Both the position numbers and the translations under genes were made by a program. A DNA stretch of 64,000 nucleotides, taken from Elusimicrobia bacterium HGW-Elusimicrobia-3 (GTDB lineage: Bacteria; Elusimicrobiota; Elusimicrobia; Elusimicrobiales; UBA9959). Under the pieces are notes generated by a model, which searched no databases, was not told the origin of the DNA, and was given only the letters and a program-made list of their open reading frames with translations. Positions 15,053 through 27,830 of this stretch are shown here, piece by piece; position 1 is the stretch's first letter; each line of letters begins with the position of its first letter. The stretch is from contig PHAL01000005.1 of assembly GCA_002840355.1 (NCBI GenBank), positions 1 to 64,000 of the forward strand, given 5' to 3'.

Positions 15053-15136
15053 AGGGGACGCTGATGACTATATGACTAATTACAGACACGATCCGCATCT
15101 GAGCAAATAATAGTCATATAGTCATCAGCGTCCCCT
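15053..15136. repeat. 26-bp perfect inverted repeat element
   Basis: AGGGGACGCTGATGACTATATGACTA ...32 nt... TAGTCATATAGTCATCAGCGTCCCCT. Confidence 0.9.
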
Positions 15137-17210
15137 AGGACAGGTCTATCAGGTTCCAGCGGGCGGCGTAGAGGTCGCGGAGTTTTTTGCGCAGGCCGCG
15201 GTTCTCCGGGGCGGCCAGGTCGGGGTCGGCGGCCAGAATGGCCTCGCGGTCTTCCATGGTTTGCGCCAGGATCTCGCCGTCGCGGGACATGTCGGCTATC
15301 TTGAACTCCATGTCGCCGTGCTGGCGCAAACCCAGGATCTCGCCGGCGCCGCGTATATAAATGTCTTTTTCGCTCAGTTCGAAGCCGTTGGAAGACTGCA
15401 CCATGGCGCGCAGGCGCTCGGCGGCGTCACCGGCGCGGGCATGGGCCACCAGCAGGCAGCGGGAATCCCACTTGCCGCGGCCCACCCGGCCGCGCAGCTG
15501 ATGCAGGCTGGCCAGGCCGTAGCGCTCGGCGTTGTTTATCACCATCAGCGTGGCGTTGGGCACGTCTATGCCCACCTCTATCACCTGCGTGGCGACTAAA
15601 ATGTCGGTGCGGCCGGCCGCGAAATCGTCCATGACCTGTTTTTTAAGCTCGCCGGGCATGCGGCCGTGCATCATGTCCACTTTTTTGCCGCGAAAAAGCA
15701 CCTTCAGCCGCTCGAACTCGGCCTTTACCGACTTCATGTCGGCCTCGGCGGTCTCCTCTATGACGGGGTAGACTATGTAGGCCTGCCGCCCTTTGGCCAC
15801 TTCTTCCTTGGCCGCGGCGAAGGCCGTAACCTCGTCGGCCTCGGTGGTCTTTATGGGCTTGCGGCCGGGCGGCAGCTCCTTCAGCACGGAAAGATCCAGG
15901 TCCCCGTACAGGGCCAGGAACAGCGTGCGGGGAATAGGCGTGGCCGTCATGATGAGCATGTCGGCCCGGTCGCCCTTGGCGCGCAGGGCCGCCCTTTGGC
16001 GCACGCCAAAGCGGTGCTGCTCGTCTATGACCACCAGCCGCAGGTTCTTGAACTTCACCCCGTCGCTGATGACGGCGTGGGTGCCCAGCAGTATGTCTAT
16101 CTTCCCGTCGGCCAGGTCGGCCAGTATCTTTTTCTTTTCGGCGGCCTTCATGCGGCCGGTCAACAGGGCGAAGCGCAGGCCGAGGCCCTTGAGAAAGCGC
16201 TCGAAAGTGAGGTAATGCTGCTCGGCCAGTATCTCGGTGGGGGCCGCGAACACGCTCTGGCCGCCGTTCTCGGCCGCGAGCAGCATGGCGCTGAGCGCCA
16301 CCACGGTCTTGCCGCTGCCCACGTCGCCCTCCAGCAGGCGGGCCATGGGGGTGGGGGCCTGCATGTCGGTAAAGATCTCGTTGATGGCGTGGGCCTGTGA
16401 GGCGGTGAACTGGAAGCCGAGGTTGGCCCGAAACGGCGTCAGCAGGGTCTTCTTCACCTCGTAGACGAAGCCCTTCTGCACGCTCTTGGTCTGGCGCTTC
16501 TTGAGCGCCCAGGCCAGCGTCATCAGCAGCAGTTCCTCGTAGATGAAGCGGCGGCGGGCGGCGGCCAGTTCGAAATTATTCTCGGGGAAATGTATGGCGC
16601 GGGCGGCGAGATCCCGGGCCACCAGCCCGCGGCGGGGGGCCAGGGCCGGCGGCAGGAAGTCCCAGACGGCCTCGTGCCCGGCCTGCACCGCCTCGTATAC
16701 CGCCTCGCGCATGAACCTGGCCGTCAGCCCCTCGGTGAGCGGGTAGACCGGGACTATGCGCCCCACGTGCATTTTGAGTGCGCGGGCGTCGTCGTCGGCG
16801 TAATACTCGTCGGCCCGCAGGCGGCTGACGAAAAGCGGGTCCTCCGGCGTGCCGGTGATCCAGACGACGCGACCTTCTTTAAGGTCCTTGCGCAGCGGGG
16901 CGAAAACGTCGAAGCGGGGATTGTGCCGCTTGAAGAAGCTGGCCTCGGCCTCCCCGTAGGGGGTCTCTACCACGGTCTTGAAGATGCGCAATTGGCTGGA
17001 GGTATAGAGGTCCCGGACGGACTTTATCTTTCCTTTAATAATAGGGGCGGGGTCCAGGCAGGGCAGCGGCTCGCGCCGGGCGGGCAGGCGCCGGTCCTCC
17101 CAGCCGCGCGGGAAATAGAAGAGCAGATCGTCCAGGCTCTCTATGCCGAGGCGGCCGAAAAGTTCGGCCTTTTTCGGCCCCACGCCCTTCAGGAACTGTA
17201 TGGAAGTCAT
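15135..17210 (-). CDS. recG: ATP-dependent DNA helicase RecG
   Basis: LLEGDVGSGKTVVALSAM, VIDEQHRFGVRQR, TATPIPRTL, VIEVGIDVPNA, QLRGRVGRG motifs. Confidence 0.96.
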   Translation of the reverse strand: MTSIQFLKGVGPKKAELFGRLGIESLDDLLFYFPRGWEDRRLPARREPLPCLDPAPIIKGKIKSVRDLYTSSQLRIFKTVVETPYGEAEASFFKRHNPRFDVFAPLRKDLKEGRVVWITGTPEDPLFVSRLRADEYYADDDARALKMHVGRIVPVYPLTEGLTARFMREAVYEAVQAGHEAVWDFLPPALAPRRGLVARDLAARAIHFPENNFELAAARRRFIYEELLLMTLAWALKKRQTKSVQKGFVYEVKKTLLTPFRANLGFQFTASQAHAINEIFTDMQAPTPMARLLEGDVGSGKTVVALSAMLLAAENGGQSVFAAPTEILAEQHYLTFERFLKGLGLRFALLTGRMKAAEKKKILADLADGKIDILLGTHAVISDGVKFKNLRLVVIDEQHRFGVRQRAALRAKGDRADMLIMTATPIPRTLFLALYGDLDLSVLKELPPGRKPIKTTEADEVTAFAAAKEEVAKGRQAYIVYPVIEETAEADMKSVKAEFERLKVLFRGKKVDMMHGRMPGELKKQVMDDFAAGRTDILVATQVIEVGIDVPNATLMVINNAERYGLASLHQLRGRVGRGKWDSRCLLVAHARAGDAAERLRAMVQSSNGFELSEKDIYIRGAGEILGLRQHGDMEFKIADMSRDGEILAQTMEDREAILAADPDLAAPENRGLRKKLRDLYAARWNLIDLS

Positions 17211-17274: not shown

Positions 17275-17328
17275 TTGAGCGCCTCTTGAGCCGGATTTGA
17301 GCGCTTCTTGAACGGCTTTTATTATACT
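17275..17328 (+). promoter_or_regulatory. Four 11-bp-phased TTGARC repeats plus -10 box, upstream of RNA copy 1
   Basis: TTGAGC 17275, TTGAGC 17286, TTGAGC 17297, TTGAAC 17308 (11-nt steps); TATACT 17323-17328. Confidence 0.75.
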
Positions 17329-17334
17329 TTAAGT

Positions 17335-17560
17335 GTCAGGTTAAGCTCTTTAAACAAGCCGTAGTCAGCAGGTTTACGGCAACAGATCTCCAGCGCTGTA
17401 CGGTGCGCCCCCCTAACCCAAACCCCCAAGACACAGGGCTTCGGCCCCGTGCTCTAGTACCTGCAGCGCTGGTCTAATTTAATGCCCCGCCGGGCAACAG
17501 TGTTCTCCCTCTATAAGTCCCCTGTCAGGCGACCAGATATTCCGGCGGGGCCTATTTTTT
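17335..17560 (+). ncRNA. Putative structured small RNA, copy 1
   Basis: Non-coding; 83-nt core 17390-17472 identical to copy 2; terminal stem GCCCCGCCGG (17484) / CCGGCGGGGC (17542) followed by a T tract. Confidence 0.7.
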
Positions 17561-17562
17561 TG

Positions 17563-17616
17563 TTGAGCGGCTCTTGAGACGGATTTGAGCGCTTCTTGAA
17601 CGGATTTACATATACT
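17563..17616 (+). promoter_or_regulatory. Four 11-bp-phased TTGARM repeats plus -10 box, upstream of RNA copy 2
   Basis: TTGAGC 17563, TTGAGA 17574, TTGAGC 17585, TTGAAC 17596; TATACT 17611-17616; same geometry as copy 1. Confidence 0.75.
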
Positions 17617-17622
17617 TTCAGT

Positions 17623-17855
17623 GTAGCAGCAAGCTCTTTACAAAGGCCCGCGAAGGCAAGTCCTAGCGGCACAACGATCCCCAGCGCTGTACGGTGCGCC
17701 CCCCTAACCCAAACCCCCAAGACACAGGGCTTCGGCCCCGTGCTCTAGTACCTGCAGCGCTGGCTAAATTAAGCCCCGCCGGGCGACAACAGGTAAGACT
17801 CCTTCGTAAGGCAACTGTATCTCACCATGAATGTTCCGGCGGGGCGCTTTTTTTG
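17623..17855 (+). ncRNA. Putative structured small RNA, copy 2
   Basis: Core 17681-17763 identical to copy 1; stem GCCCCGCCGG (17773) / CCGGCGGGGC (17836) then GCTTTTTTT. Confidence 0.7.
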
Positions 17856-20187: not shown

Positions 20188-20874
20188 ATGAAAGAACGGG
20201 CACTGATAGTGGACGACGACCCGGAGCTGCTCGGCATCCTCAGGAAATACCTGGAGAACCACGGCCTCGAGACGATCTCCGCCGCCAACGGCGCCGAAGC
20301 GCTGGCCGCAGCCCCGGCCGGCAAACCCGACATCATCATAACCGACGTGGAAATGCCCCGCATGGACGGCTTCACGCTATGCCGCCGCGTCAAAGAGAAC
20401 AAGGTGCTCGCCGACATCCCGGTCATAATCATGACCGGCAAGAAGATCTCCGAAGCCGACCAGGTGGCCGGCTACGGCTACGGCGCCGACGATTACGTGG
20501 TAAAACCCTTCTCCTACCCGGTGCTGCTGGCCAAGGTCAAAGCGATGCTGCGCCGGGCCGCCCGGGGCAAGAAGAAGGCCTCCGTGTTCAGGGCCGGCGA
20601 CCTGGAGCTGAACCTGGAAGGCCGCACGATAAAGATAAAGGGCAAGCCGGTAAAGCTCACCTCCAAGGAATTCGACCTGCTGCACACGCTGGCCTCCAAG
20701 CCGGGCAAGGTGCTCAGCCTCAACAGCCTGCTGGAGGCGGTCTGGGGCTACAATACCGCCGATTACAACGACCCCCACACCGTGGAAGTGCACGTCTCCA
20801 ACCTGCGCCGCAAGATAGGCGCGCTGGGCAAGCGCATCAAGGCCGTGCCCGGCCACGGCTACAAGTTCGAATAG
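20188..20874 (+). CDS. OmpR/PhoB-family response regulator
   Basis: Receiver domain ALIVDDDPELL..TDVEMPRMDG..VKPFSYPVLLAKV; C-terminal winged helix LTSKEFDLLHTLASKPGKVLS..VHVSNLRRKIG. Confidence 0.95.
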   Translation: MKERALIVDDDPELLGILRKYLENHGLETISAANGAEALAAAPAGKPDIIITDVEMPRMDGFTLCRRVKENKVLADIPVIIMTGKKISEADQVAGYGYGADDYVVKPFSYPVLLAKVKAMLRRAARGKKKASVFRAGDLELNLEGRTIKIKGKPVKLTSKEFDLLHTLASKPGKVLSLNSLLEAVWGYNTADYNDPHTVEVHVSNLRRKIGALGKRIKAVPGHGYKFE

Positions 20875-20875
20875 C

Positions 20876-22846
20876 ATGAAGAAAACCGGCACCAGCAAGG
20901 ATATAGAGGCCCTCGGCAAGGCCCTGCCGCTCATGCTGGATACGGCGCTGGCCCCGGACAATCTGGAACCCTTCCTCAAAAAAATAGCCCGCCTGCTGTC
21001 CGGCCCGGACGGCGTCTGCGCCTGCGCCAAGGTGGCCATAAGCCTCAAAGGCGTGCGCGGCCGCCCGGCCCTCAGCGTCTGCCCGGCCTGCCGCAAAGCG
21101 GACCTGGAGCGCATGGCTCTGGCCGCCAAAGCGCACGCCGGCAGGGGCCTTTTTTTCTCGCACGCCATCAAGGCGGGCAGCGCCCGCGCCGGCAGCATCT
21201 CCGTGCTGCTCACCAAGCCGCCGCCCAGCCCCCGCGCGGCGGCCGCGACCATAGAGCTGGCCGCCAAGGTAATAGGCGCCCGCCTGGTCAACGAGACCCG
21301 CGACGCCGAACTGCGCCGGGAAAAGGACCTGTCTTCCTCCCTTAAACATATAGAGGAGCTTTATCTCTCCTTCCCCGGCATCTCCATCGAGGAGATCTCC
21401 CGCGCCGTGCTCGACGAAGCCCGCCGCCTGACCGGCAGCTCGCTGGGCTTCGCCGGCTGTATTGACAATACCACCGGAAACATGGCGATGGCCTCGCTCA
21501 CCTCGGACGCCTGGGATAAATGCCCGGTAAAAGACAAGCCGGTGGTGTTCAGTAATTTCAGGGGTTTGTGGGGCTGGGTGCTCAAGCGCAAGCGGCCGCT
21601 GCTCACCAACGCCGCGGCCTCGGACAAGCGCGCCGCCGGTCTGCCGCAGGGGCACATGAAGATAGAGAAATTCCTGGGCGTGCCGGCGCTGTCCGGGCGC
21701 CGGCTGCTGGGCATGCTGGCGCTGGCCAACCCGCAGCGGGATTTCGCCCCGGAGGACCTGGACGCGGCGCAGAAGCTGGCCCGCGTCTACGCCATGATAC
21801 TGCAGCGCAAGGAGGCGGAGGACCGCCAGCGCGAAGAGGATACCCGCTTCCGCACCATCCTCTCCTCCACCAAGGACACCATCTACACGGCCGACCTCAA
21901 CGGCAGGATCACCTATATCAGCCCGCAGGCATCCGATTACGGCTACACTCCGGAGGAACTGCTGGGCCGCTCCATACTGGAGTTCGCCCACCCCGAAGAC
22001 AAGGATTTCATCACGAAGGCCTGGGCCAACGCGGTCAAGACCGGGCGCACGCTGCCCATACTGCCCTACCGCCTCAGAAAGAAGGACGGCAGCTACGCCT
22101 ACGCCGAGCAGAAAAGCGGCGTGGTGGGCGAGGGCGGCAGGTCGCTCTATATCACCGGGGTTATCCGCGACGTGACCGGCCAGAAGGAGACGGAGCGCCT
22201 GCTCAAGGAAAGCGAAACGATGATGCGCATGGTCTTCGACACGGCCGCCGACGCTATCTTCATCAAGGACATGAACGGCATGTACGTGAAGGCCAACAAG
22301 GCCTGCGCGGACCTGATGAGCACCACCCCGGAGGCCATGATAGGCCGCACCGACTCCGATTTCTTCCCGCCCGAGACCGCGGCCGCGGTGTTCCGCACCG
22401 ACAGCGAGGTGGTGCTTAAGGACAAAACGCTCTCGCTATACAATTACCACCCTTTCCCCGGCGGCAGCCGGCACGTAAACATCATCAAGACCCCGCTAAA
22501 GAACGTGCGAGGCGAGACCATCGGCCTGCTGGGCATAGCCCGCGACATCACCGACCTCAAGCGCATGGAAACCGAGCTGGCCCTCGCGCACGCGGCCGAG
22601 GCCGTAAGCAACGTGGCCAGGCCCATGGCGCACGACTTCAACAACGCGCTGGCCGCCATCAACGGCTACGCCACGCTGATAGACGAGGACCTGCCCGCCT
22701 CCAGCCCGATAAAGAAGGAAATTTCCAGGATAATAGAGGCCGTCAAAAGGGCGGCCGTGCTGACGTCGAAGTTCCAGGATTTCGCCAGGAATCCGGACAT
22801 AAAAAACCCCGGCAAGCCGGGGGAGAAGAAAGAAGAAGGGGCCTAG
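20876..22846 (+). CDS. GAF/PAS/PAS sensor protein with dimerisation-like H-box but no recognisable ATPase domain
   Basis: PAS segments RFRTILSSTKDTIYTADLNGRITYISPQ and MVFDTAADAIFIKDMNGMYVKANKA; MAHDFNNALAAINGYATLI; ends about 65 aa later. Confidence 0.85.
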   Translation: MKKTGTSKDIEALGKALPLMLDTALAPDNLEPFLKKIARLLSGPDGVCACAKVAISLKGVRGRPALSVCPACRKADLERMALAAKAHAGRGLFFSHAIKAGSARAGSISVLLTKPPPSPRAAAATIELAAKVIGARLVNETRDAELRREKDLSSSLKHIEELYLSFPGISIEEISRAVLDEARRLTGSSLGFAGCIDNTTGNMAMASLTSDAWDKCPVKDKPVVFSNFRGLWGWVLKRKRPLLTNAAASDKRAAGLPQGHMKIEKFLGVPALSGRRLLGMLALANPQRDFAPEDLDAAQKLARVYAMILQRKEAEDRQREEDTRFRTILSSTKDTIYTADLNGRITYISPQASDYGYTPEELLGRSILEFAHPEDKDFITKAWANAVKTGRTLPILPYRLRKKDGSYAYAEQKSGVVGEGGRSLYITGVIRDVTGQKETERLLKESETMMRMVFDTAADAIFIKDMNGMYVKANKACADLMSTTPEAMIGRTDSDFFPPETAAAVFRTDSEVVLKDKTLSLYNYHPFPGGSRHVNIIKTPLKNVRGETIGLLGIARDITDLKRMETELALAHAAEAVSNVARPMAHDFNNALAAINGYATLIDEDLPASSPIKKEISRIIEAVKRAAVLTSKFQDFARNPDIKNPGKPGEKKEEGA

Positions 22847-27439: not shown

Positions 27440-27446
27440 ATTTTTT

Positions 27447-27830
27447 AGACCGCGGACTGTACCCCGAATTCTGTCCAGCGCCTTGCGGCGCCTGGAGGAC
27501 CATTTATCTATTGCGGCCCACTCTGCGCTGCCCCCCGGAGGGGGCGGACGGGCAGTCCATCGCGCAACTTTGGCCTTGCTTCAGGAGGGGCTTGCATTGC
27601 CGCACGCATCTCTGCGTACGCGGTGCGCTCTTACCGCACCTTTTCACCCTTACCCTTGCGGGCGGTATGTTCTCTGTGGCGCTATCCGTCGACGGGGGAT
27701 ATAGCCCCCGCCTCCCGGCCTATGCTCCGCTCATATAATGCTGCGAAGTTTGAACCGGCACCCTGCCCTGTGAAGTTCGGAAGTTCCTCCCCTCCCTTGC
27801 GGGAAGAGCGGCCCTCCGTCCGCGGTCTAA
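27447..27830 (-). ncRNA. rnpB: RNase P RNA, bacterial class A
   Basis: Minus strand GAGGAACTTCCGAACTTCACAGGGCAGGGTGCC, GGTAAGGGTGAAAAGGTGCGGTAAGAGCGCACCGC, ACAGAATTCGGGGTACAG; closing stem AGACCGCGGAC...GTCCGCGGTCT. Confidence 0.95.

Follow-up and report, generated by a model that had tools for sequence, protein, structure and literature searches.

Twin structured small RNAs with a nearly invariant C-rich loop represent an apparently unlisted RNA family in Elusimicrobia and are probably driven by a linked OmpR-family regulator

The enterobacterial small RNAs OmrA and OmrB are tandem siblings under positive control of an OmpR-family two-component system; they act on regulator mRNAs, including that of ompR, which is repressed (PMC4211561). 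In Firmicutes, RoxS/RsaE carries conserved C-rich pairing regions and its transcription is activated by ResDE/SrrAB (PMC4409812), and it is countered by the sponge RNA RosA (PMC8216469). The small RNA sX13 of Xanthomonas is discussed in connection with C-rich and G-rich motifs (PMC3771888). A search of the literature found no report of small RNAs from Elusimicrobia. We analyzed a stretch of 64,000 nucleotides (the window) from an Elusimicrobia metagenome-assembled genome, in which two side-by-side units, both equipped with separate promoter and terminator sequences, may be read as sibling base-pairing small RNAs that would resemble OmrA/OmrB or RoxS/RsaE in their mode of action but show no detectable homology to either. 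Like OmrA/OmrB, they are tandem siblings with one common segment and a divergent remainder; activation by an OmpR-family regulator is predicted here from a linked regulator gene and 11-bp repeats. OmrA/OmrB differ in being 82–88 nt long, in having no C-rich internal loop and in belonging to another phylum; moreover, OmrA/OmrB act on ompR itself, whereas the partner predicted here is the 3′UTR of another regulator's mRNA. C-rich regions are common to RoxS/RsaE and the present RNAs, which have an invariant C-rich loop with a conserved computed complement, but RoxS/RsaE differs in structure, is a single gene and comes from another phylum. sX13 comes from another phylum and gave no sequence match in the Rfam search. 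If the proposed reading is true, the Elusimicrobia pair would have arrived, apparently independently, at the OmrA/OmrB design, in which sibling small RNAs are controlled by a regulator of the OmpR type.

The two units comprise the following features.

17275–17328, plus strand: copy 1 promoter; TTGA words at 17275, 17286, 17297 and 17308 (11-bp phase) and −10 element TATACT at 17323–17328
17335–17561, plus strand: copy 1 small RNA with predicted ends, ~227 nt, the start placed 7 nt past the −10 element and the end at the T tract; folded
17390–17472, plus strand: copy 1 core hairpin, conserved 83 nt; covariance model match of 98.7 bits
17407–17428, plus strand: copy 1 C-rich loop, unpaired in the fold, proposed seed
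17484–17561, plus strand: copy 1 terminator; GCCCCGCCGG (17484–17493) and CCGGCGGGGC (17542–17551) plus T tract, conserved in relatives
17563–17616, plus strand: copy 2 promoter; TTGA words at 17563, 17574, 17585 and 17596 and −10 element TATACT at 17611–17616
17623–17855, plus strand: copy 2 small RNA with predicted ends; folded
17681–17763, plus strand: copy 2 core hairpin, conserved 83 nt; covariance model match
17698–17719, plus strand: copy 2 C-rich loop, unpaired in the fold and nearly invariant among homologues
17773–17854, plus strand: copy 2 terminator; GCCCCGCCGG (17773–17782) and CCGGCGGGGC (17836–17845) plus T tract

The twin layout proposed by an earlier sequence-only reading was reproduced throughout. 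The 83-nt cores at 17390–17472 and 17681–17763 were 100% identical with a spacing of 291, the upstream blocks were offset by 288 and 78% identical, in agreement with the claimed offset of 288–291 bp, and the terminator blocks were offset by 289–294. Outside the core, the copies were only 56–58% identical, so the flanks diverge as described, and both units ended in the common GCCCCGCCGG/CCGGCGGGGC stem and T tract. In its flanks, copy 1 was 95–99% identical to copy 1 of G014, the nearest relative; the core of copy 1, by contrast, is identical to that of copy 2 and only 94% identical to the orthologous copy-1 core of G014. The exact core identity is therefore probably due to a recent gene conversion confined to the core. 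Across the genomes compared, the two cores inside one genome were 69–100% identical and the flanks generally much less so. The long terminator loops (17494–17541 and 17783–17835) contain repeated GUAAGRC- or GUCAGGC-like words, which also occur in many homologues.

In the computed fold of the core (−37.6 kcal/mol, z = −4.2, with none of 200 shuffles equally stable), the closing stem consisted of 11 bp, a bulge and then 5 bp. It enclosed an upper hairpin capped by GGGC-UUCG-GCCC and, 5′ of this hairpin, 22 unpaired C-rich nucleotides. Thus, the closing stem of the earlier reading was borne out but its length of 9 bp was too short, whereas the GGGC-UUCG-GCCC hairpin was recovered as the tip of the upper hairpin and the exposed C-rich segment as the unpaired 22 nt. 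A covariance model was then built, and covariation analyzed, on 37 distinct cores. Standard pairs filled 97.5% of the pair cells in these sequences, and both sides had changed in 15 of the 27 pairs, which was matched by 0 of 500 shuffles; shifting the partner columns by 1–3 abolished the covariation signal. The loop CGCCCCCCUAACCCAAACCCCCAAGAC was nearly invariant in the 37 homologues while the helices varied, the pattern expected of a constant single-stranded seed set in a changeable scaffold. The C runs of the loop were retained in distant genera despite changed flanking domains, and in some genera the core hairpin itself has a T tract behind it.

BLAST found the core in nearly all genomes of the same genus, with compensatory changes, and such recurrence shows that the core is not due to chance. 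The sequence-only reading had asked whether related genomes carry the core; they do, and the homologues show strong covariation. With the covariance model at E up to 0.01, a search of 341 genomes of the phylum gave matches in 46, which represent 8 genera of a single family; at a laxer threshold, 47 of 121 relatives matched. No core was found outside that one family in the 341-genome search, a restriction that marks the limit of the covariance model because this search used stricter filters by which weak matches can be lost. Most genomes of the genus carried a tandem pair, and other genera mostly a single copy. Scanning the whole window against Rfam 15 at the gathering score returned nothing except RNase P (RNA class A, 27444–27827, minus strand, the sole Rfam match in the window). 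For the region of both units, no family matched even at a lenient E of up to 5, and neither unit showed homology to the OmrA/OmrB, RoxS/RsaE, sX13 or 6S models in the Rfam scan, in line with the earlier failure to place the RNA in a known family. The proposed pair of sibling structured small RNAs, apparently non-coding, is supported, as are its lack of an Rfam match and its conservation in relatives with strong covariation. As far as found, both units belong to a real, apparently unlisted family of structured small RNAs that is so far confined to one Elusimicrobia family.

The earlier reading mentioned neither the 11-bp repeats of the promoters nor the two-component genes linked to the RNAs. 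The repeat word TTGARC recurs up to four times with an 11-bp period and abuts the −10 element, and by reading of the sequence no normal −35 hexamer stands at the usual −35 distance. TTGA words occurred upstream of TATACT at positions 0, −11, −22 and −33 in 37, 35, 25 and 27, respectively, of 37 promoter copies, which had been selected by spacing, leaving aside 14 further copies, mostly with CTGAAC as the last repeat. Searching nine genomes of the family for the promoter pattern with at most three mismatches gave 13 matches, 12 of them at these RNAs, and the match at copy 1 covered 17296–17328. PhoB sites are likewise built from a pair of 11-bp direct repeats (PMC3978041). The present promoters thus resemble PhoB/OmpR-type promoters in having direct repeats with an 11-bp period right upstream of the −10 element, but differ in the word TTGARC and in having up to four repeats. 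The neighboring genes of note are as follows.

15135–17210, minus strand: recG, divergent neighbor (Pfam RecG_wedge and helicase domains; synteny)
20188–20874, plus strand: OmpR-family response regulator, proposed activator (Pfam Response_reg and Trans_reg_C)
20876–22846, plus strand: GAF/PAS sensor with HisKA, proposed input protein (Pfam)

In most loci recG adjoins the RNA, and the usual pattern of the genus is a tandem pair beside recG. An OmpR-family regulator lies downstream of the RNA in most loci of g1, g3, g11 and g14, usually followed by the GAF/PAS kinase-like protein, and in g2, g13, g15 and g16 the kinase-like homologue is adjacent to the RNA. Here, two genes, for a DUF4412 protein and a mechanosensitive channel, stand between the RNAs and the regulator. 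The Pfam search did not detect an ATPase domain in the kinase-like protein at 20876–22846, and one of its homologues (locus L054) seems to end early. Because the 11-bp TTGA pattern occurs almost only at these RNAs, the linked OmpR-family regulator probably drives both of them, its binding to the repeats being predicted from gene linkage and repeat geometry. An HTH-17 (BldC-like) receiver protein was also considered as the promoter binder and rejected. BldC operators have a consensus of direct AATT-type repeats in units of 9 bp (PMC5859096), while here TTGARC recurs at 11 bp, which makes the linked OmpR-family regulator the better candidate.

In addition to the homologues, genome-wide BLAST with the core gave short matches to the loop, which in four species fell in the 3′UTR of an HTH-17/receiver regulator gene. 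A G-rich element of ~25 nt was found between stop codon and terminator in most orthologues of this gene, and it also complements the RNA outside the C runs, at GUGCGCC; in the own-genome element, GGGGUAUGGGUUAGGGAGGCGCACC, 23 of 25 nt pair with the RNA by computation. Across the 15 species that have both, the computed duplex between loop and 3′UTR ranged from −31.8 to −53.9 kcal/mol with z from −2.3 to −7.3. The z values come from dinucleotide shuffles, which control dinucleotide content only, and C runs and G runs readily find pairing partners in each other. The best predicted RNA partner is thus this conserved G-rich 3′UTR element, not a ribosome-binding site. It cannot be the sole partner, since at the threshold applied no HTH-receiver gene was detected in four RNA-bearing genomes (G002, G004, G006 and G010).

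We consider, with moderate confidence, that the two tandem genes encode trans-acting small RNAs of a new family, which are activated by an OmpR-type regulator and act by base pairing of their loop with G-rich RNA. The gene-like units, their structure and conservation, the invariant loop, the promoter repeats, the gene linkage and the conserved complementarity were all obtained by computation, and from them we infer transcription, activation through binding by the neighboring regulator, duplex formation and the direction of the effect. The GAF/PAS kinase-like protein would feed a signal to the linked response regulator, which would bind the 11-bp direct repeats standing in for a −35 element and activate both RNAs. 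Each RNA of ~225 nt would then present its 22-nt unpaired and nearly invariant C-rich loop on a hairpin with a 16-bp base. The loop would pair with G-rich segments in other RNAs, among which the HTH-17/receiver 3′UTR is the strongest predicted partner. Such pairing might target the HTH-17/receiver mRNA for degradation or, in the opposite direction, allow that mRNA to titrate the small RNA. These RNAs form a well-defined family, backed by covariation, with a candidate regulator encoded nearby, a specific DNA motif and a conserved predicted partner, so that every stage of a regulatory circuit in an uncultured lineage becomes testable.

The same RNA might instead have other main targets, blocking the Shine-Dalgarno sequences of several mRNAs, perhaps for oxygen defense, with the 3′UTR as a titrating sponge. 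GGTTAGGGRGG-like sites were found before the ATG of OsmC, FMN reductase, rubrerythrin and desulfoferrodoxin genes in different species (L159, L161, L165 and L167), and a precedent exists in the C-rich RoxS, which blocks a ribosome-binding site (PMC4409812) and has the sponge RosA (PMC8216469). Pairing of the loop with ribosome-binding sites, as the sequence-only reading had suggested, nevertheless found no backing in the counts: matches anchored at such sites numbered 13, after removal of three antisense matches, versus 11 for the reversed control. In the own genome, glgA and one small ORF have ribosome-binding sites matching the loop complement; the glgA site recurred in the nearest relative only, and the rubrerythrin site was full in G009 only and partial in G001, so that neither candidate target was supported. 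The glgA and rubrerythrin sites are thus unconserved across the genus, matches at ribosome-binding sites are not enriched over control, the matches at the four oxygen-related genes may be chance, and the oxygen-defense theme is a post hoc impression. We consider this alternative unlikely. Many rubrerythrin leaders (L209–L226) contain a small hairpin with a GGG-containing loop, which could be a putative kissing partner of the C-rich loop.

Spaced C triplets are typical ligands of Rho, KH and cold-shock proteins. The C-rich loop, which is conserved as a sequence, might accordingly bind such a protein, the RNA serving as a decoy or scaffold and the 3′UTR complementarity being secondary; but protein binding does not predict a conserved G-rich element of ~25 nt that also matches GUGCGCC, and we regard it as rather improbable. 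A divergent housekeeping RNA such as 6S RNA would explain why one hairpin-rich RNA per locus occurs across the whole bacterial family, yet no Rfam model, 6S included, matched at E up to 5, the C-rich loop is one-sided rather than a central bubble, and the tandem copies have dedicated promoters, so that we give this possibility very little credence. A repeat, mobile element or cis-acting leader, suggested by the palindromic core and by the several copies in some genomes, is no more credible given the fixed place by recG or sensor genes across genera, the promoter and terminator of each copy, and the lack of dispersed full-length core copies in the own genome. Finally, a short protein gene is of negligible probability although a frame is open through the core in each copy, because the start codon is not conserved and homologues differ by indels of 1–3 nt and compensatory base-pair changes, in line with the earlier judgment that neither unit codes convincingly.

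Besides the tandem pair, other hairpins expose C-rich loops. Downstream of the HTH-receiver gene, a hairpin, GUCAGGGCUGCC-UCCCUCACCCUACCCCCCAAAA-GGCAGCCCUGCC, followed by a T tract was nearly invariant in 17 of 19 loci (fold z −6.2), and is possibly a second small RNA of ~55 nt. Upstream of it lies TTGACA-17-TAGAAT and, in most species, also a TGTRAC-N4-GTTACA-like dyad; the promoter appears sigma-70-like and the dyad resembles a CRP-type site. By computation, its loop also pairs with the HTH-receiver 3′UTR, more weakly than the small RNA loop does. A third hairpin family carries GCGCCUCCCUAACCCAAACCCC or a close variant in its loop on a different closing stem in several genomes (z −3.2). No Rfam match was found at the eight loci holding these other RNAs. 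Tentatively, and with more doubt than conviction, we raise the idea that members of this Elusimicrobia family run an RNA network on one C-rich/G-rich code, with the tandem small RNAs, the hairpin behind the HTH-receiver gene and the third hairpin family, three hairpin RNAs at the least, displaying C-rich loops that resemble one another, and with the regulator 3′UTR as target or sponge; if true, two signaling systems would be linked through RNA alone. The own-genome copy of the hairpin behind the HTH-receiver gene lies on C72 at ~86350–86450, minus strand (locus L103; relatives L104–L121), between the HTH-receiver and TPR-like genes, and the third hairpin family was seen at loci L051, L056, L057, L058, L135 and L136.
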